A DNA stretch of 33,673 nt from an uncultured bacterium. Lineage in GTDB: Bacteria > Patescibacteriota > Minisyncoccia > Phycocordibacterales > PALSA-1337. The notes under the pieces are model-generated. The model had not been told where the DNA came from. It made no database searches and saw nothing but the letters and a program-made list of their open reading frames with translations. The position numbers were made by a program, and so were the translations under genes. The stretch is taken from positions 1 through 33,673 of the forward strand of contig CAIQCJ010000028.1 of the NCBI GenBank assembly GCA_903870315.1, given 5' to 3'. Positions 2,578 to 13,764 of this stretch are shown here, one piece after another; positions within the stretch are counted from its first letter, which is position 1, and each line of letters opens with the position of its first letter.

Positions 2578-3276
2578 ATGTCCAAAATCAGCGTCATAAT
2601 GCCAGTATATAATGGAGAAAAATACATAGGCGAAGCTATCGGCAGTATTTTGGCACAAACTGAAAGAGATTTTGAGCTCCTTGTGGTAGACGATGGTTCG
2701 ACCGATAAGACAGTAGAAGTAGTGAGCTCATTCAAAGATGATAGGGTTAAATATTTCAAAAGATCCCATGAAGGTTTGGTCATGGCCTTAAATTTTGCTT
2801 TAGGAAAAGCCAATTCGAAATACATAGCCCGCATGGATGCTGACGATGTTGCTTATCCAGAAAGATTTGAGAAACAACTAAAATATATCACTGCCAATAA
2901 CTTAGCTGTTTGTGGAAGCTGGGCCGATCTTACAGATGAAGACGGTGATAAGATAGGTGAATTGAAATTTCCTCCAATCACAGCCGGCGCAATTCGTTAT
3001 TACGCCATACTGCACAATCCTTTCATACATCCTACTGTTATTTTCGATAAAGATATAATCATGAAGGCTGGTGCGTATCGCAATTTCAAAAATGTAGAAG
3101 ACTATGAATTGTGGACCAGAATAATATTCAAAAATAATGTTGGCAATATACCAGAAAGATTGATCCGTTATCGTTTACACTGTTTGCAAGTTACCAGAAG
3201 AAAAAATAAACTGATGAAAGCTAGCTCATACTTAGTGAGGCTTTATGCTTTACGCCGTCGAATATTTAGGATATAA
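2578..3276 (+). CDS. Family 2 glycosyltransferase
   Basis: ISVIMPVYNGEKYIGEAIGSILAQTERDFELLVVDDGSTDKT ... ARMDADDVAYPERF (GT2 motifs). Confidence 0.92.
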   Translation: MSKISVIMPVYNGEKYIGEAIGSILAQTERDFELLVVDDGSTDKTVEVVSSFKDDRVKYFKRSHEGLVMALNFALGKANSKYIARMDADDVAYPERFEKQLKYITANNLAVCGSWADLTDEDGDKIGELKFPPITAGAIRYYAILHNPFIHPTVIFDKDIIMKAGAYRNFKNVEDYELWTRIIFKNNVGNIPERLIRYRLHCLQVTRRKNKLMKASSYLVRLYALRRRIFRI

Positions 3277-3280
3277 GACC

Positions 3281-4378
3281 CTATTTAGATTTTGAACCAC
3301 TTTCGAGCTCTCTTTCACAAAGCTCCAATAAAATTTTATTTAGATCATACTTAAAATCCCATTTAGGATAGTGTTTCTTGAATTTTGATATGTCTGATAT
3401 GTACCAAATATGATCACCAGAGCGATTTGATTCAGAGTATTTATAGTTTGCTTTTCTGTTTAGTATCTTCTCGATTTTCTCTACGGCCTCTTTTACTGAG
3501 ACATTTGATTTTCTGGAGCCACCGACGTTGTAGACTTCACCTTGTCTTGGATTTTGATGATAATGCCAAAACATATTTACCAAATCATAACTATGAATAT
3601 TATCTCTAACTTGGTTGCCTTTATAACCAAATATTGTATATTTTTTACCTGTTGCTATGCATTTTACTAGATATGAAAGGAAGCCGTGTAACTTTGTTCC
3701 GCTGTGATTTGGACCAGTTAGGCACCCACCTCTAAATACGCCAGTATTTAGACCGAAATATTTTCCATATTCCTGTACCAAGATATCGGCGGCTACTTTT
3801 GATGCCCCGAATATACTATGTTTGGAGTTATCTATACTCATAGATTCATCTATACCATGTTCAGCATACGGATGTGACGGGTCTATCTCATAGCGAGTTG
3901 CGAGTTCTATGAGTGGTAATTTGTTAGGACTGTCTCCATAGACTTTGTTTGTAGATGTGAATATGAAAGTGGCTTTTGGAGAATATTTGCGGAAATTTTC
4001 CAGTATAATCAATGTTCCAACAGCATTTATAGTAAAATCTGTTATAGGTTCTTTGGCGGCCCAGTCATGTGATGGTTGTGCCGCGGTGTGAACGATAATA
4101 TCAAAGGCGTGCTCCTTAAAAAGTTTTTCGACCTTCTTTTGATCACGGATATCAATATTTTTATGGATATATTTTTCTTTAAACTTCTTCTCTAGAGATT
4201 TTCTATTCCAGTCCGTACTAGCGTCTTTACCAAAAAAATATTGGCGCATATTGTTGTCTACTCCAACCACGACGAAACCTTTGTCTATTAGGAAACGGAC
4301 TGATTCTGAGCCGATAAGACCGGCTGAACCAGTGACCAGAGCTTTCTTCGTCTTTTGGGACTTACTGGCTTTTTTCAT
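3281..4378 (-). CDS. NAD-dependent epimerase/dehydratase, CDP-paratose 2-epimerase (tyvelose epimerase)-like
   Basis: [17 protein letters not shown] Rossmann motif; [18 protein letters not shown] and [12 protein letters not shown] resemble the CDP-tyvelose epimerase subgroup of SDRs. Confidence 0.85.
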
Positions 4379-4401: not shown

Positions 4402-5295
4402 CTAAATTTGTATCCAATATGGTGGTACCACAGTAGATTTATCCGCCATATTTGTAAACCATTTTTTAGGCGCTATAACTATCTTGTTTGGATTTGTATT
4501 TAACCAAGCTGCCCACCATGCGAAAGTGCTATTTGGGATAATGAAGTGTTTGCAGGCTATCATCAGTCTTAAATAATCCATATAATCTCTCCCTGCATAT
4601 TCGTGAGTCACGAAAGTTGTAGGGAAGCCAAAATTTACATTTTTTTGGCACCACTCTATATCATCTGAAAATACGAAAAAGTGAGGATCTTTTTGTTTTT
4701 GAGTGATCAGCTTTACCGCATTTGCATAGTAATCTTCTCCAGGGACTCCGTGGAAATTTTTTACATTGGCATTGGATATATAGTCAGTTCTTCTATAGTT
4801 CACAAATATAGAATTTGAAGAATTTATTTTTTGTAGCATTTCTTCAGATTTTGCCTCCATTTTCCAAGTAAATGATCCAAAATCTTTTCTGATCTCCTGT
4901 TCTATTTCTTTGAAATAATTTTCATTTTGCCAGAAACCAGTTATAAATGAGACTGGCTTATACAATTTTAGGTCATATTGTTCTTTGTGATTTGACTCAT
5001 CTATCCAATGTGTCAGTTTTTCACTGTTCGGATACAATCTCCGTAGAATAGATCTAATAACTCTAGGTGTGTATATAATATCAAAGAATCTAGTCTCTTT
5101 TGTTGAAGCTATTTCAATTGGAAATATGAAATTTCCGAGCTGATATGTACGTGGGGTGTCTTCTTTGGCTCCACCACTAGTGTATGTAGTTATGTCAAAT
5201 TTGAGGGTATCACCATTTTTTTTGGCTAGTTTCTTACCAAACGCATATTGAAACATCTGATTTCCTAAGCCGCCTTGGAGTTTGACTATAATCAT
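4402..5295 (-). CDS. GT11 family alpha-1,2-fucosyltransferase-like protein
   Basis: N-terminal IIVKLQGGLGNQMFQYAFGKKLA; VNYRRTDYI (HxRRxDY-like); FSDDIEWCQKN; NSTFAWWAAWLN. Confidence 0.93.
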   Translation of the reverse strand: MIIVKLQGGLGNQMFQYAFGKKLAKKNGDTLKFDITTYTSGGAKEDTPRTYQLGNFIFPIEIASTKETRFFDIIYTPRVIRSILRRLYPNSEKLTHWIDESNHKEQYDLKLYKPVSFITGFWQNENYFKEIEQEIRKDFGSFTWKMEAKSEEMLQKINSSNSIFVNYRRTDYISNANVKNFHGVPGEDYYANAVKLITQKQKDPHFFVFSDDIEWCQKNVNFGFPTTFVTHEYAGRDYMDYLRLMIACKHFIIPNSTFAWWAAWLNTNPNKIVIAPKKWFTNMADKSTVVPPYWIQI

Positions 5296-5296
5296 T

Positions 5297-5965
5297 TTAG
5301 TATTTTTTTATGTATATAGAATTTATATTTGTATCAGCTATCTTGGTATAACCTATAGATTCCATATAAGGATCGTAAATATCATTAGTTTTTTTGCCAG
5401 ATTTATATCTTTCATAATCGATAGTTTCTAGGATGATATATTTTGGACGATATATATCCCAACTATTGCTTTTCAAGATAGTCATCTCCATGCCTTCAGT
5501 GTCTAGAGATAAGATATCTATTTCCGTTTTGCAGGCGTATGTATTCAATATATCTGCCAATGGAACTATATTTACGTCCTGAATTTTTTTGATCTTATGT
5601 CCCTTTTTTTCATATTTTTCAGCTACCCCCTTATCAAAAGTACTCAAAGTATCGTCTTTAAATATGTAAAATGGCAATACGGATTTATTTTCTCCGATAC
5701 CGACGTTTAAAGTTTTATCTCTTCTACGTAGAAGTTTAAACATCCAGAGGCGATTTGGGTTTGGTTCTATGTTTATACCTTTCCAACCTTTCGAATAGAA
5801 AAGGAAAGTGTTATTGAGCTTTATAGGATGATTTGCCCCTATATCTACATAAAAGCCCTTTTTTTGTTCTGGGATTAAGGATTCAATGATCAAGTCCTCG
5901 CCATTTTGACTGGTTAGTAGTCGTACACCAAATATCTTCAGTAGTATCTTATTTATGAAGCGCAT
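5297..5965 (-). CDS. FkbM family methyltransferase
   Basis: GFYVDIGANHPIKLNNTFLFYSKGWKGINIEPNP ... DILSLDTEGMEMTILKS. Confidence 0.9.
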   Translation of the reverse strand: MRFINKILLKIFGVRLLTSQNGEDLIIESLIPEQKKGFYVDIGANHPIKLNNTFLFYSKGWKGINIEPNPNRLWMFKLLRRRDKTLNVGIGENKSVLPFYIFKDDTLSTFDKGVAEKYEKKGHKIKKIQDVNIVPLADILNTYACKTEIDILSLDTEGMEMTILKSNSWDIYRPKYIILETIDYERYKSGKKTNDIYDPYMESIGYTKIADTNINSIYIKKY

Positions 5966-6762
5966 ATTTTTTGGATAATCTTTTTTATAAATGGTAATTT
6001 GTCCAGTATAACATGACTTTTATTACCTCTTAGAAAATCGTGTCCGCCAAAATTTTTCTTGTCTTGGTTCAAGATAATCTTAGGAAAAGGTATTTCTGCA
6101 TTGCCAGGATATAAATATCCAGGGTGAAGTATCTTCACGTCATCTCGTGATAATAAGAATTTATTCCAATGAGATTCATCGTGCCATACGGCTATGATAT
6201 TTTTTTCTGAGTCTTTATCTATGGCAGTTTTTATCACCTGCATGGCCTGAATAAAATCTTTTGTATATCCACCCATAAGTCCACCAGCAAAGTATTTCAC
6301 ATCTTCGTTTCGTGGAATATAAGCTGTTGAATTTGGATTTTTCTCATAAGGAAGTTTTTTTCTGGGTTTATCGAAATATCCTGGATGTAGAGTTGAGACA
6401 AGTCTCTCTTGTCCGGATGGTAAAATGTCTATAGTGGAGATTTTCTCTAGTATCAGAAGATTTGCATTGAAGAAAAAGAGGTAGTCCATTTTTTCTATGG
6501 TGTTTACCTCTTGGGGCGTACCGCCGATTTCTCTCAGGAACATATGGAAGCGCATAAGAGTGTTTCCTGGCCAACCAATATTCTCTTGATATATACGGTG
6601 TATCCTAGGGTTATCTTTTCCATATTCTATGTCTGGTGAATCAGTAAATACAAAATAATGTTTCTCAGCCTCTGTTACTAGGTTTTTTTCGCAGCTTTCA
6701 TAGAAACCTTTCCAAAAGATTTTGTATTTTCCAGTACATATATATAGGATACCGATAGTCAT
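5953..6762 (-). CDS. GT6 family glycosyltransferase (ABO / alpha-1,3-Gal(NAc)T superfamily)
   Basis: IGILYICTGKYKIFWKGFYESCEK, HYFVFTD, WPGNTLMRFHMF, FFFNANLLI (NxN in place of DxD), HPGYF, YFAGGLMGG, IIAVWHDESHWNKFLL. Confidence 0.92.
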   Translation of the reverse strand: MTIGILYICTGKYKIFWKGFYESCEKNLVTEAEKHYFVFTDSPDIEYGKDNPRIHRIYQENIGWPGNTLMRFHMFLREIGGTPQEVNTIEKMDYLFFFNANLLILEKISTIDILPSGQERLVSTLHPGYFDKPRKKLPYEKNPNSTAYIPRNEDVKYFAGGLMGGYTKDFIQAMQVIKTAIDKDSEKNIIAVWHDESHWNKFLLSRDDVKILHPGYLYPGNAEIPFPKIILNQDKKNFGGHDFLRGNKSHVILDKLPFIKKIIQKICAS

Positions 6763-6763
6763 T

Positions 6764-7702
6764 TTATTTGATTTTTTTATTGATCATGCCAAAAGCACGG
6801 ATAATGTTTTCAATGGACTGCTTATAGGTGTATGACTTTATTATGTTCTGCTGATTTGAGGCAAGTGCCAAGTACTCATCTTTGGATAATGCTAGGACTT
6901 TCTTTGTCATTTCTTCTACAGTACCAGTCACGGCATATTTACCAAGGATTTCATCAAATTTTCTGACGTTACTGAAACCGACATGACCAAATGAAATATT
7001 TTTGAACATACGGCAGGGTAGATAATTCTTATCAACCTGCCATTCTCCAGCTATAGCAGGGGCTAGCCGCGAATATCGCACAAAGAGTTTATTGGCCCAC
7101 TCCGGAACAAATCTGACAGCGTAGAATCTTAAACCTATTCTCGTAACTTCTTTTTCGAACTTAGCTATGACATTTATATTTCCTTGATTCGAGGCGTTGT
7201 TCCAAACGCTACCAACCCAAAAGATGGTCTTGTGCTTATTCCATGTCGGTTTTGAAAATTTGTGAGCTAGGATATTTGTACCCCAGGGCTGATAGAGTGT
7301 ACGAGTCGGCTTATCGAAAAAGGTCACAGGCCCCCACCTTTCACTAGATTTCCCCGCTTCATCTGTATAAACTTGCAGACTTATCCACCGATCTTTCTTT
7401 AATCTATCGGAGAATATAGCTTGAAAGCCGTGGAGACAATAATACACACCGTCTTTTATCGGGATATTGTAATCTTCAAAAGTCTTCTTTTTCGGCACCA
7501 TTTTTCCGAAAACTTCTGAAGCGATCACCAAATCCCCGGCCTTTATATGATGTGTTTGACTGGGTTCATCTTCAACCCAAATAGCTTTATAACCCAAAGC
7601 TATAGCATTGTCATAAAATGCCTTGTGAATATGGCGATGAGTGTGATATCTCTTGCGAAGTCCCCATATCACGATTCTTTCAAAAGGGATGTTTTGTGGC
7701 AT
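6764..7702 (-). CDS. Uncharacterised protein, possibly a GT-B type glycosyltransferase
   Basis: Long ORF in the glycan cluster. C-terminal region (KNISFGHVGFSNVRKFDEILGKYAVTGTVEEMTKKVLALSKDEYLALASNQQNIIKSYTYKQSIENII) resembles GT-B/GT4 tail organisation; no unambiguous motif. Confidence 0.55.
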   Translation of the reverse strand: MPQNIPFERIVIWGLRKRYHTHRHIHKAFYDNAIALGYKAIWVEDEPSQTHHIKAGDLVIASEVFGKMVPKKKTFEDYNIPIKDGVYYCLHGFQAIFSDRLKKDRWISLQVYTDEAGKSSERWGPVTFFDKPTRTLYQPWGTNILAHKFSKPTWNKHKTIFWVGSVWNNASNQGNINVIAKFEKEVTRIGLRFYAVRFVPEWANKLFVRYSRLAPAIAGEWQVDKNYLPCRMFKNISFGHVGFSNVRKFDEILGKYAVTGTVEEMTKKVLALSKDEYLALASNQQNIIKSYTYKQSIENIIRAFGMINKKIK

Positions 7703-7714: not shown

Positions 7715-8497
7715 CTACTTTTTTCTAAGATGCATGTAGGCAATATAGCTATTCCATTTTTTGTCTAGAAGGAGCCTATTAGGCATAAGATCTTTGTTGT
7801 ACATAGACGGATTTTCAGCATAGAAGTAAGGCTCTAGCATTTTCATAAAATATGGCAAAGTAACCTGTTGGTCTGAATCCTTGAGTTCAGTATGGTTTTC
7901 TTGTTCAGGAAGATTGTTCAGTGTTTTTTCTAGTATGGCCCATGGAGCAGATCGTTTCTTATCGAATGTCAGGTCGAGTGTTATGAGGAGGTGGCCACCT
8001 TTTTTCATTATCCTATTTATCTCGATGAGAGTATTTTTGAAACTTTGTATAGGGAAATGTTCAAAAGCCGACAAGACCACGACGACATCTGTTGAACCGT
8101 CCGCAAGAACAGACATATCTTCTCCAGATTTTCTATAGATATTACATTTGTCAGATAAGTGAGTTACTTCTGGAAGCCTGTCGTCGGGGTCGAAGCCAAA
8201 AAGTTTACAGCCAGATTTTAAATAGAAAGTGTAGAAATTTGATTCTGACGGTGCTCCGATGCCTACATCGGCAACAACTTTATCTCTGATACCAATTTTA
8301 TTTAACTGCTCTACAAGATAGTAGCATTCCCAGCGACGTGCACCCCAATTTGCGTAAGTGTAATCAAAGGTTTGAGGATTGTTTTTGGAAAAATACCCGA
8401 TATCGCCATAAGATGAGTCCTTTTTTGTGGATAGACAAACGATCCTTGCCAATAAGGTTTTAGTAAAACGTTTAATTTCCTTGAGATTTTTCCGCAT
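7715..8497 (-). CDS. Class I SAM-dependent methyltransferase
   Basis: VADVGIGAPSESNFYTFYLKSGCKLFGFDPD, DVVVVLSAFEHFPIQSFKNTLIEINRIMKKGGHLLITLDL. Confidence 0.85.
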   Translation of the reverse strand: MRKNLKEIKRFTKTLLARIVCLSTKKDSSYGDIGYFSKNNPQTFDYTYANWGARRWECYYLVEQLNKIGIRDKVVADVGIGAPSESNFYTFYLKSGCKLFGFDPDDRLPEVTHLSDKCNIYRKSGEDMSVLADGSTDVVVVLSAFEHFPIQSFKNTLIEINRIMKKGGHLLITLDLTFDKKRSAPWAILEKTLNNLPEQENHTELKDSDQQVTLPYFMKMLEPYFYAENPSMYNKDLMPNRLLLDKKWNSYIAYMHLRKK

Positions 8498-9323
8498 GGT
8501 TTTTCTTGATGATACTATAAATTCTTAACCTTAACCATCTGTAGGCGCTAAACGGAAAATAAATGAGAAATTCTTTTTTCCACATCAGTCTCCAGTATAG
8601 ATTTACGGTGCGGTTCAAGACGGGGAGGTAATTGTTTGAAGATTGTCCGACGTGCAGTCTGTATCCAGTCAAAGCCTCATCTATATAGACGAACTTATAT
8701 TTCAGGCTAAGGCGAAGCCATAGATCATAATCTTCAACGGCGCGCATCCCGGGATTTTCATCGAGATGATTTTCTTTGAATATGGTGGCCCCACCCATAA
8801 CAGATGAATTTACTATGAAATTTTCCAAAATAAGTCGGCGAGTGATATTTCCAGAATATATTTTTCCGATGGCGTCTTTGCTTCCGTCCAACATATATCT
8901 TCTAGTATGCACAATAGATAAGGGATTTTCTGTCAGCAAATGCAGCTGTTTTTCTATCTTAGTCGGCGCCCAAACATCATCGGCGTCTAGAAATGTTATG
9001 TATTTGCCTTGCGCCAGAGCCACTCCGACATTGCGCGCCGCGGCCTGGCCTCTATTTTTCTGGTATTGATATCTTATTTTTTCAGATTGAATAAGTCTGC
9101 CGAGAACATTTTTTGTATTGTCTGTAGATCCATCGTCGATTACGATGATCTCAATATTTTTGTGCGTCTGTTGAGACACGGAGTTTATGGCCTCGCCGAT
9201 ATGGGCGGAGCTATTGTATGTAGGTATCACAACCGATACCGACAATTCCGACACCAGAGGTTTGCTACTAGGACTATTGTCTTCCATATTATTTTTTCTT
9301 GAACCAGAAACAGCCACAACCAT
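8472..9323 (-). CDS. Family 2 glycosyltransferase
   Basis: SVVIPTYNSSAHIGEAINSVSQQTHKNIEIIVIDDGSTDNT ... ITFLDADDVWAPTKIEKQ. Start may be the internal Met at about 9288 (MEDNSPSS). Confidence 0.93.
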   Translation of the reverse strand: MVVAVSGSRKNNMEDNSPSSKPLVSELSVSVVIPTYNSSAHIGEAINSVSQQTHKNIEIIVIDDGSTDNTKNVLGRLIQSEKIRYQYQKNRGQAAARNVGVALAQGKYITFLDADDVWAPTKIEKQLHLLTENPLSIVHTRRYMLDGSKDAIGKIYSGNITRRLILENFIVNSSVMGGATIFKENHLDENPGMRAVEDYDLWLRLSLKYKFVYIDEALTGYRLHVGQSSNNYLPVLNRTVNLYWRLMWKKEFLIYFPFSAYRWLRLRIYSIIKKNHAEKSQGN

Positions 9324-10056
9324 ATGATTCCTGATCTACGCGTTCTTTCGTCGGATTTGTAAGTGGGTCGTCGTCACTGTCAGGTATCAGGTATGATTCG
9401 ACCAAGGTTAAACCGTCGAAATATTTTATTATTTGCTCATAGGAATATATTCTATGGGCATTGTATCGTACCCGCGGTTTTCCTACTGGGACAACAAATA
9501 ATAAATCACCTCCTTTTGCCAAAACTCTTTTGAGTTCTGAAATAGCCTTCAAGTCTCCATTTGAATCTATAGGATCACCATAACGTCCAAGGCCGACATG
9601 TTCTATGGTATGCATGCAAGAAAGAGATACGACACTATTTGAAGGAAATGGAAGATTTGTCAGATCACCTCGCCTTGATGTCAAACCACTAAGTTTTAGA
9701 TTGGCTAGTCTGAAATCGTAAAAATCTACAGGAACAAAAGCGGACACCATAGAACTAAATGCTAGCGTTGAAGATATATCTATGTGTAGTTTGGGTTTTG
9801 TTTGAGCAAGTATCCGTGCCGCCCACGCTGGATGGTATATATAATGCCTATCAAAACATGTATACGGAGTATTGTCGTAGAGGCACGGAAGTCTATCATC
9901 CCACTTGATAGTAAAACGGCTTTGGGGTCCGTCACTTAGGGTGCTTTCCTTTCTAAAAATGGAAAAATCTTTCAAGTATTTCGAATAAAAGTATAACCAT
10001 TTAAATGATTTATAACATGGTTTGGGCAAGATTTTTTTTATAATCTTTTTATTCAT
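9289..10056 (-). CDS. DUF268-like protein (methyltransferase-like)
   Basis: LHIDISSTLAFSSMVSAFVPVDFYDFR, DLTNLPFPSNSVVSLSCMHTIEHVGLGRYGDPIDSNGDLKAISELKRVLAKGGDLLFVVPVG. Start trimmed to MNKKIIKKI to avoid overlap with the upstream gene. Confidence 0.85.
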   Translation of the reverse strand: MNKKIIKKILPKPCYKSFKWLYFYSKYLKDFSIFRKESTLSDGPQSRFTIKWDDRLPCLYDNTPYTCFDRHYIYHPAWAARILAQTKPKLHIDISSTLAFSSMVSAFVPVDFYDFRLANLKLSGLTSRRGDLTNLPFPSNSVVSLSCMHTIEHVGLGRYGDPIDSNGDLKAISELKRVLAKGGDLLFVVPVGKPRVRYNAHRIYSYEQIIKYFDGLTLVESYLIPDSDDDPLTNPTKERVDQESYGCGCFWFKKK

Positions 10057-10066
10057 ATTGCTTTGT

Positions 10067-11383
10067 TTATGTATTTTTACTGATTTCTGCGGATATATTT
10101 TTCGCACGGATATTTTTGAATCTTAGCAAAATCCAGATCACTATAGGTATTATGGTATATGACAATAGCGTTGCATAAGCCGAGCCGATGATGCCGTACT
10201 TGGGTATCCAAATCATGTTCAGGATCACGTTTGCAGCAGCACCGACTAGAGAAGAAACCATGATGATGACGGTCTTATTTTCTATGATCAAATATTGTTG
10301 AATGATTATAAGGGCAGAAACAGCTACTCCGGCCCAAGTATATATCCTTACTATATTTACAGCTTCCATATAGGCCACACCAAACAAGAACAATACGATG
10401 GATTTGGCAAAGATGAATTCGAACAAGGCGACCGCCGCGGAAAGTACTATTATGAAATAAAGAAGTTTCTTAACCCTATCCTTATATATCTTTTCATCTG
10501 CTATCTTGGCATTCATGATAGCGGGGAATATAGAAGTGCATATAAGTCCGGGTATGAAATACCAGACTTCTGAAGGTTTCACTCCAGCGGCATATATACC
10601 GAGGGAATGTCCCGTCAACATTTTTCCGATCATCACCTGATCTATTCTGGTATATATGATGGCAAAAGCGGAGTTCAGAATAAAAGGCCAAGAATCCAAG
10701 AGCATTTCTTTTGCTAGATTCAATCTCATCTTCAGTTTCAAGACGTGGCCATTTTTCCTGAAGATCAATAGTAAGACTAAAGCGTAGACCAAACCTTCGA
10801 AAAGAAGTGAGGCTATGAACCATCCGGTTCCCATGCTGGTATAGATGAGAAAGAGTTTCAGTGTTGAGACCAATATTGTGGAAATAAATTGACCAATGAA
10901 AATGTACCTATTTTTTACTTGAGTTACGAAATAAGATTCCACCACACTTGTCGATAAGAAGATCATCTGAAGCGAATATATGAATATAAGAATATTTGTG
11001 TAATTGTCGCTCTTCACGACAAAGATCGAAAAGATGCTTGTCAGTATCACGACCACGAGGCCACCGATAAGTTTTAGAGAGAAAGCTGTGTTGATGATAT
11101 CCTCTTTTTCCTCTGGATGTTTCATTATGTCTCTAGGGATGATGTTGTCTATACCAAAGCTGGCCAAAAAGGCCATGATAGTCACGAAGCTCAAGACATA
11201 GTTCAAGACCCCGTATCTTTCTGGTCCAAGATATCTAGCCACCATAGCCCCAACAAAGAAAGACATCGCTAGGGCAAATACCTTACCAGCGAAGGCCCAG
11301 CCAGTATTTTTGAAGTATCTTTGGAATCCAGGGTGCTGGATTTTCTCTTTCACTATCTTTACTAGATTTCTGATGCTTTCCAT
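10067..11383 (-). CDS. Polysaccharide flippase (Wzx-like, MOP superfamily)
   Basis: Polytopic; GWAFAGKVFALAMSFFVGAMVARYLGPERYGVLNYVLSFV typical of the polysaccharide biosynthesis export family. Confidence 0.92.
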   Translation of the reverse strand: MESIRNLVKIVKEKIQHPGFQRYFKNTGWAFAGKVFALAMSFFVGAMVARYLGPERYGVLNYVLSFVTIMAFLASFGIDNIIPRDIMKHPEEKEDIINTAFSLKLIGGLVVVILTSIFSIFVVKSDNYTNILIFIYSLQMIFLSTSVVESYFVTQVKNRYIFIGQFISTILVSTLKLFLIYTSMGTGWFIASLLFEGLVYALVLLLIFRKNGHVLKLKMRLNLAKEMLLDSWPFILNSAFAIIYTRIDQVMIGKMLTGHSLGIYAAGVKPSEVWYFIPGLICTSIFPAIMNAKIADEKIYKDRVKKLLYFIIVLSAAVALFEFIFAKSIVLFLFGVAYMEAVNIVRIYTWAGVAVSALIIIQQYLIIENKTVIIMVSSLVGAAANVILNMIWIPKYGIIGSAYATLLSYTIIPIVIWILLRFKNIRAKNISAEISKNT

Positions 11384-11502: not shown

Positions 11503-13764
11503 ATGTCTATAAAACAAATAACCAGATTCTTCACCCTATGTGCTTTGTTTGTTATTCCATTTTTCCCTATAGTAGTTGCCAACTCCTACTTCTTTCCATT
11601 TATAACTGGTAAGGCCTTCTTCTTTAGGATTTTGGTGGAAGTAGCTTTCGCTGGCTGGTTGATATTGGCGGCTATAGATGCTAAGTATCGTCCGAAGATC
11701 AATTCTCTTACTATAGCGGCTACTCTTTTCATGGTGATCGCGTTGGTCGCTGATCTTCTAGGTATGAATCCTATACGCAGTGTAGTTTCAAACTTTGAAC
11801 GTATGGAAGGTTGGCTTATGATATTTCATCTTTGGATGTTCTTTATGTCTATTACTCACACTTTTGGCCAAGGTGAAGAAGGTAAGCGTATGTGGTTTCG
11901 TTGGTTGAACCTCTCTTTGGTCGTAGCATTTTATGTTGCCTGCAGAGGTGCTCTTCAGTGGTCTGGTAAGATTGCTATAGAACAGGGAGGAACTCGCCCA
12001 GATTCTACTCTCGGTAACGCGGCTTATCTGGCTATATATATGCTCATCAGTTCTGGCATGTCCACATACTTATTCATCTCTACTCAGATTGCACGTAAAG
12101 CCAATGCTGCCAAAGATCAAGTTACAGCCTTCATAGTGAAAGAATGGGTCTATGTTGTTATTGCGATATTCTTCGGTGCGATACTATTCAGCACAGCTAC
12201 TCGTGGTGCCATCATCGGTTATTTAGGTGGTATCTTGTTAGCTCTTGCTCTGTATGCCATCTTCGGAGGAAGTAAAGAACATAAGCATGATTCTTCCAAA
12301 CACATACTCTCTACAAATACTTGGAGAGCTATGTCTGGAGGTATTATAATCCTGGTCATATTGATCGGTTTCGGTGTCTGGTTAAACAGAGACAGCTCCT
12401 TTGTGAAAAACAGCCCAACTTTGACTCGTATGACTTCTATTTCTCTATCAGAATTCAAGACTGAGGGTCGTTCTTATATCTGGCCTATGGCTTTGAAGGG
12501 TTTTACTCAGAGACCTGTTCTCGGATGGGGTCAAGAGAATTTTAACTATATATTCAATGCGAATTACGATGCTCATATGTGGAACCAGGAGCAGTGGTTC
12601 GATAGGGCCCACAGTGTATACTTGGATTGGTTAGTCGCTTCTGGTCTGGTTGGACTCTTAGCATATCTATCATTGTATATATTATTCTTGGTATTTGTTT
12701 GGAAATCTAAGGCATCTATATCTATAAAGAGTGTTTTGACTGGCCTCTTGGCTGGTTACGCATTGAACAACGTATTCGTCTTCGATAACTTAGCAAGCTA
12801 TGTACCGTTTTTCGCACTTCTAGGACTGGCTATCATGATCAGGTCTCTACACACGAAGGAATCTGAACATAAGACTTTGGGTGGTGCCGTCTCTGTAAGC
12901 AACGACGCTATAGAATATGTGATTGCACCTATAGTTATTGTCTTGTTATTGTCTGGAATATATTTCTGGAATGTACGCCCTATACAAGCCAACACTGGCC
13001 TCATAACTGCTCTGCAGCAGTGTCAACAGGGCGGTAGTCCTGATGCCAATCTATTCAAGAATATTTTGGGTATGGATTTATATATGGCAAACCAAGAAAT
13101 CAGAGAGCAGTTGTTCTCTTGTACTGCACAAGTCTTGTCTAGTCAACAAATACCAGGTCCAACTAAACAAGCTTTCTTCTCTGTAACTGGTCAAGCAATA
13201 GACGACCAGATCGCCACAACTCCGAAAGATGCTCGTATATATACTTTGGCTGGGTCATTCCTGACGAGCGTCAACCAGTTTAGTAGAGCGATACCTATAC
13301 TTGAGACTGCCCACACACTTTCACCAGCTAAACAGTCTATAGATTTCGATCTAGCTTCTGGGTATATGAATACAGGTAAGTCAGATAAGGCCATAGAGCT
13401 TCTCAAGCAAGCTTATTATTCAGCCCCAGAATATCCTCAAGCCAGGATCTCATATGCAGCAGCACTCATCTTGAGTGGTGAAGAAGCTGAGGCTCGCGAT
13501 CTGTTCACAGGCAATACTTCTGGATTTAATAATGATATTATCGCTCAAGCATTTACTTCATTGAAGCAATATGACAAGGCTATTGCCATATACGATGCCA
13601 TGATATCTACTGACAGCACAAACGTCCAAGCAAAAGCGATGTTGGCACAGACACAATATACAGCTGGCCTCAAAGAGGATGCTCTTAAGACTCTACGTGA
13701 CATAGAAAAAGATCATCCAGAATATACTGATTCTATAGAACAGGCGATAAAAGGGATGAAATAA
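11503..13764 (+). CDS. O-antigen ligase/polymerase family protein with C-terminal TPR repeats
   Basis: Multi-TM N-terminus; STATRGAIIGYLGG, RSYIWPMALKGFTQRPVLGWGQENFNYIFN, AHSVYLDWLVASGLVGLLAYLSLY (Wzy/WaaL hallmarks); TPR-like C-terminus. Confidence 0.9.
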   Translation: MSIKQITRFFTLCALFVIPFFPIVVANSYFFPFITGKAFFFRILVEVAFAGWLILAAIDAKYRPKINSLTIAATLFMVIALVADLLGMNPIRSVVSNFERMEGWLMIFHLWMFFMSITHTFGQGEEGKRMWFRWLNLSLVVAFYVACRGALQWSGKIAIEQGGTRPDSTLGNAAYLAIYMLISSGMSTYLFISTQIARKANAAKDQVTAFIVKEWVYVVIAIFFGAILFSTATRGAIIGYLGGILLALALYAIFGGSKEHKHDSSKHILSTNTWRAMSGGIIILVILIGFGVWLNRDSSFVKNSPTLTRMTSISLSEFKTEGRSYIWPMALKGFTQRPVLGWGQENFNYIFNANYDAHMWNQEQWFDRAHSVYLDWLVASGLVGLLAYLSLYILFLVFVWKSKASISIKSVLTGLLAGYALNNVFVFDNLASYVPFFALLGLAIMIRSLHTKESEHKTLGGAVSVSNDAIEYVIAPIVIVLLLSGIYFWNVRPIQANTGLITALQQCQQGGSPDANLFKNILGMDLYMANQEIREQLFSCTAQVLSSQQIPGPTKQAFFSVTGQAIDDQIATTPKDARIYTLAGSFLTSVNQFSRAIPILETAHTLSPAKQSIDFDLASGYMNTGKSDKAIELLKQAYYSAPEYPQARISYAAALILSGEEAEARDLFTGNTSGFNNDIIAQAFTSLKQYDKAIAIYDAMISTDSTNVQAKAMLAQTQYTAGLKEDALKTLRDIEKDHPEYTDSIEQAIKGMK

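Follow-up and report, generated by a model that had tools for sequence, protein, structure and literature searches.

The window, a stretch of 33,673 nucleotides, corresponds to contig 28 in a genome assembly of 656 kb (G000; 97.5% complete, 41 contigs, smaller than its congeners). This small size, together with the Candidatus Nomurabacteria / Patescibacteria genomes found in the same order, supports the CPR-like host suggested in the initial annotation. Nine minus-strand genes form one tight operon running from 11383 to 3281, in which intergenic gaps or overlaps do not exceed a few tens of bases (Table 1). The operon starts with a Wzx flippase, followed by a DUF268/methyltransferase protein, a GT2 glycosyltransferase, a methyltransferase, an unassigned protein, GT6, an FkbM methyltransferase, GT11 and an SDR; GT6 and GT11 are its genes 6 and 8. 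The coordinates initially given for both are correct, and the motifs quoted for them are all present (HYFVFTD, FFFNANLLI, YFAGGLMGG, WHDESHWNKFLL and IIVKLQGGLGNQMFQYAFGKKLA). The FkbM methyltransferase announced between them is recovered by its family profile. A plus-strand reading of the two genes was rejected, the plus frames being full of stops.

Table 1. Genes of the operon and of its flanks, with positions in the window
Feature	Position	Strand	Evidence and remarks
Wzx-type flippase	10067..11383	-	PF01943, PF13440; first gene of the operon
DUF268 / methyltransferase-like protein	9289..10062	-	PF03269, PF08241; start set at 10062, longest frame from GTG at 10107
GT2 glycosyltransferase	8472..9323	-	PF00535, E=6e-38
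Class I SAM methyltransferase	7715..8497	-	PF08241
Probable GT-B glycosyltransferase (tentative), with no Pfam/NCBIfam family assigned	6764..7702	-	Model pLDDT 64; recurs at other GT6 loci
ABO-family glycosyltransferase (GT6) of the NxN type, with AGG as donor motif	5953..6762	-	PF03414, NF041524, PDB BoGT6a 4AYJ, mapped donor-site residues
FkbM-family methyltransferase	5297..5965	-	PF05050 (E=2e-21), TIGR01444; between GT11 and GT6, 13-base overlap with GT6
GT11 fucosyltransferase family	4402..5295	-	PF01531; alignment of 16; AF2 model pLDDT 86 and Foldseek
Extended SDR	3281..4378	-	PF01370; nearest PDB matches 9RL0/1ORR (CDP-tyvelose 2-epimerase); ends the operon
Wzy/O-antigen-ligase-like membrane protein, C-terminal TPRs	11503..13764	+	PF04932, TPR; divergent from the operon
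GT2 glycosyltransferase	2578..3276	+	PF00535; converges on the operon

Homologues of the converging GT2 gene adjoin the GT6 islands of relatives. The G+C content of the 3–7 kb stretch is 33–36%, compared with 42–45% in most of the remaining window. Low G+C is a frequent trait of laterally acquired glycan islands, and the AT-rich stretch would fit such an origin. A prophage or phage origin was rejected, with no nucleotide match to phage records and a GT6 clade lying apart from every viral GT6. Promoter and terminator scans gave sites no more numerous than in shuffled sequence.

Two other proteins of the operon deserve a comment. The 6764–7702 protein, which has no Pfam/NCBIfam match, also accompanies GT6 at three CPR loci and two viral ones; its low-confidence model resembles GT-B glycosyltransferases (Gtf3, FUT9), and it possibly represents an undescribed glycosyltransferase family. 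In the SDR, the catalytic YxxxK reads FxxxK (HSIFGASK versus HSPYGCSK), and plasmid-borne relatives with 62–68% identity occur in Azospirillum, Deinococcus and Persicobacter.

Active sites and relatives of the two glycosyltransferases

The GT6 identity proposed at the outset was confirmed by a profile search (PF03414, E=5.3e-32, 111 bits for a cut-off of 25), and the NCBIfam model NF041524 (Gltr_6) gave 280 bits for a cut-off of 250. The best match among PDB structures is BoGT6a of Bacteroides ovatus (4AYJ, 231 bits; other entries 4AYL and 4CJB), the human ABO transferases reaching 99 bits. Throughout the catalytic domain, about 49% of residues are identical between the two bacterial enzymes. 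As had been noticed from the sequence, an NxN motif replaces DxD: N-A-N is aligned to Asn95-Ala-Asn97 of BoGT6a. Twenty-one BoGT6a positions were mapped, consisting of the published ligand contacts (PMC3961637) with Asn97 and the donor triple added here. Twenty of them are identical in the window GT6, including N95, N97, E192, K231, R243 and A155-G156-G157; the donor-site residues Glu192, Lys231, Arg243, Arg73, Trp66 and Tyr13 are all retained, and W-H-D-E is common to both proteins. The sole change is Thr134 to Pro. Further differences from BoGT6a are a short stretch inserted after residue 78 and about 23 additional residues forming a C-terminal tail, as well as the CPR host.

BoGT6a catalyses a metal-free transfer of GalNAc to 2'-fucosyllactose (PMC3961637). 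The residue triple at the ABO donor-specificity site, where human GTA/GTB have Leu/Gly or Met/Ala at positions 266 and 268 (PMC4202792), reads AGG in the window GT6 as in BoGT6a, and AGG or QGA among GT6 relatives of the same order. Since this AGG triple is that of a GalNAc transferase, GalNAc appears a likelier donor than Gal. The antigen was initially described as A- or B-like; by this analogy its A-like version is favoured, and the B-like one becomes less likely.

GT6 is rare in this group: it is present in 1 of 384 genomes across the phylum, and in 6 of 397 within the order, spread over five genera. A phylogeny including bacterial and phage members, as had been proposed, places the window GT6 (support 94) in a mostly-CPR clade with Nomurabacteria, Magasanikbacteria, a small number of Proteobacteria and others. 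The viral GT6 proteins form a separate branch and have the metal-binding DxD in 17 of 17 loci tested, in contrast with the NxN of the window enzyme. Judging from record titles, the nearest relatives come from Lake Pavin, groundwater-type and bog samples. A mimicry of animal glycans is thus unsupported, the close relatives being environmental and cyanophages carrying the same GT6/GT11 pair; a role of the glycan in phage-directed variation or in host-cell attachment is possible. Two GT6 proteins of the set have other fusion partners, a Wzx-like flippase domain in Prevotella ne3005 (L152) and a GT2 domain in a Nomurabacteria member (L091).

The GT11 assignment held equally well, PF01531 matching positions 1–294 of 298 (E=4.7e-31, 109 bits for a cut-off of 24). 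The N-terminal motif GGLGNQMFQYAFG and the C-terminal NSTFAWWAAWL are intact. The HxRRxD motif reads NYRRTD, with Arg-Arg and Asp kept and His replaced by Asn, a substitution also seen at locus L085. Its R168 and D171 are invariant in an alignment of 16 relatives, and the first Arg of the motif is described as the critical residue (PMC4202792). None of the solved structures in the PDB is a sequence relative of this protein. Its AlphaFold2 model (pLDDT 86) retrieves almost exclusively GDP-fucosyltransferases with Foldseek, the best PDB matches being POFUT1, plant FUT1, NodZ and FUT8 (E down to 8e-7, with moderate TM scores of about 0.5). The predicted fold is thus of the GDP-fucosyltransferase-like GT-B type. 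The alpha-1,2 linkage is unproven, since HhFT2, another GT11 member, is an alpha-1,3-fucosyltransferase (PMC4202792); the Asn standing for the conserved His of HxRRxD also speaks against the expected activity.

Recurrent pairing and fusion of GT6 and GT11

Clear GT11 matches are found in 96 of the 397 genomes of the order (about 24%) and in all six of those with GT6 (Fisher p=1.8e-4). The two genes lie at most 1.6 kb apart in the window and at three other loci (L028, L030, L031), and the order GT6-FkbM-GT11 is repeated in L031. The GTDB set comprises 80 GT6 loci, of which the 55 with at least 4 kb of flank on both sides were counted for neighbours. GT11 lies within 3 kb of GT6 in 41 of these 55, and within 300 bases in 22 of the 41; these are raw counts, the background frequency of GT11 given above being that of the order. 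It also accompanies GT6 at 12 of 17 viral loci; in the Synechococcus phages DSL-LC03 and S-8S55 (L167, L168), GT11 precedes GT6 with a start-stop overlap. Same-strand adjacency is the rule at most loci, across many phyla and phages.

At three loci, both families lie in one open reading frame, each above its Pfam cut-off, whereas the window has two separate genes. One fusion belongs to Candidatus Magasanikbacteria UBA922 (L086), a CPR host like that of the window, and the others to planctomycete contigs (L111, L157). As the GT6 tree places L086 and the planctomycete pair on separate branches, the fusion probably arose at least twice. From their domain content, these three proteins are possible single-chain ABH-antigen synthases. 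The adjacency and the fusions in two separate lineages are the strongest evidence for GT6 and GT11 acting in succession, and back the cooperation that the initial annotation had read into their neighbourhood. A co-inheritance of the two genes as one fixed cassette finds no clear support: the GT11 partners of the CPR GT6 clade are scattered over several places of the GT11 tree, but most deep branches of that tree are weak.

GT6 in bacteria and cyanophages, the NxN chemistry and the GT6/GT11 pair of E. coli O86 were already known (PMC3961637, PMC4202792). The latter pair, WbnI (GT6) and WbwK (GT11), occurs in one organism and builds a blood-group-B-like end (PMC4202792); WbnI transfers Gal whereas the motif of the window GT6 suggests GalNAc, and the two systems are likened here at the level of their enzymes. 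A literature search of incomplete coverage found no paper that describes GT6 in CPR or its fusion with GT11. The window adds a further case to a known GT6/GT11 type; of greater interest are the pairing across phyla and the fusions.

Donor supply and a possible pathway

Family-profile searches of the 41 contigs of G000 detected no GMD (best score 29 bits for a cut-off of 415), no fucose pyrophosphorylase or FKP, leaving GDP-fucose salvage unseen, and nothing recognisable as a GDP-fucose synthase or as a 4-epimerase of UDP sugars (UDP-Gal/UDP-GalNAc). The only full extended SDR of the genome is that of the window, which is CDP-tyvelose-2-epimerase-like; it was rejected as a GMD or GalE, with scores far below the cut-offs. 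Given this lone SDR and the missing GMD and pyrophosphorylase, synthesis of GDP-fucose or UDP-Gal/GalNAc is not recognisable in G000, and the idea of a complete ABH pathway in this cell finds no support. PF00483 nucleotidyltransferases are likewise absent from G000 and from the genus genomes searched. Their absence was discarded as proof of missing donor synthesis since it is genus-wide, and since G524, another GT6 genome of the order, lacks PF00483 yet carries both GMD and fucose synthase. Among the six GT6 genomes, GMD occurs in G524 only (split in the assembly), with a fucose synthase at 486 bits for a cut-off of 500, and G619 carries GalE. Genes missing from the assembly, unrecognised enzymes and supply by the host cell are all possible donor sources.

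The best explanation, which we hold to be somewhat better than an even bet, is that GT11 and then GT6 act on one acceptor to give an A-antigen-like end. The operon would build a lipid-linked surface glycan. GT11, a putative inverting GT-B enzyme, would use GDP-fucose to place L-fucose on a terminal galactose, presumably in alpha-1,2 linkage. GT6, of the retaining GT-A type and metal-independent through its NxN motif, would then add alpha-1,3 GalNAc to the same fucosylated galactose, yielding a branched A-antigen-like end group from donors that the cell does not visibly make. FkbM and the other methyltransferases would cap or decorate the glycan, which Wzx would flip in its lipid-linked form, and the Wzy/ligase-like protein would probably process the product.

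The two enzymes could also serve the same glycan without acting sequentially on one galactose, for example through another fucosyl linkage or a non-fucosylated GT6 acceptor. This is a minority possibility that deserves to be taken seriously. The alpha-1,3 activity known within GT11 (PMC4202792) points that way, as do the GT11 genes found on the strand opposite to GT6 (L081, L083) or about 30 kb away (L029), and the common gathering of many glycosyltransferases in glycan islands. In the same vein, GT6 does not always need GT11, since lineages with other donor triples have GT6 without a GT11 neighbour, namely the Prevotella SGA type (L145, L147, L149, L155, L158, L159) and the Acinetobacter TGA type (L120, L126, L129); these enzymes may use another acceptor. 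However, same-strand adjacency over phyla and phages and a fusion in two lineages are hard to explain without a common acceptor or product. The same pairing statistics (the association within the order, the 41 of 55 loci elsewhere and the fusions) make it very improbable that the genes are chance neighbours, with no functional link, in a laterally acquired AT-rich island, even though the local G+C, the shuffling of island genes between relatives and the mixed origins in the GT11 tree would all suit such a view.

The donor question cuts across these readings and overlaps them in part, as it concerns supply. The pair may not be fed by GDP-fucose made in the cell: GT11 could use another donor, nucleotide sugars could derive from a host, or the operon could now be unproductive. 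We consider this rather unlikely, though by no means negligible. Beyond the missing GMD, fucose pyrophosphorylase and 4-epimerase of G000, GMD is lacking in 54 of the 96 GT11-bearing genomes of the order, and the congener G581, 99% complete, has GT11 but no strong extended SDR. Against it, GMD and GT11 occur together more often than expected among the 397 genomes (odds ratio 3.3, p=3e-6), G524 holds GMD, fucose synthase, GT6 and GT11, and the fragmented and comparatively small G000 assembly may lack the relevant genes.

A possible surface-variation module beyond vertebrates

ABO-type glycan synthesis is usually framed as common to vertebrates and their gut bacteria. The occurrence of the GT6/GT11 pair in CPR bacteria of lakes, groundwater and bogs, in planctomycetes and in cyanophages rather suggests a general microbial surface-variation module, of which the vertebrate link is one instance. 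The fusions of GT6 and GT11 found in nature could be tested directly as single-chain ABH synthases and are possible tools. The absent donor pathways raise a concrete question, that of the source of activated sugars in CPR cells. A more daring proposal, which we regard as improbable on present evidence, is that GT11-GT6 is a mobile two-enzyme module for ABH end groups, shared by many phyla and cyanophages and fused at least two times, which in donor-less CPR bacteria uses the nucleotide sugars of the host. If this were true, the coat of an epibiont would be made from the metabolites of its host.
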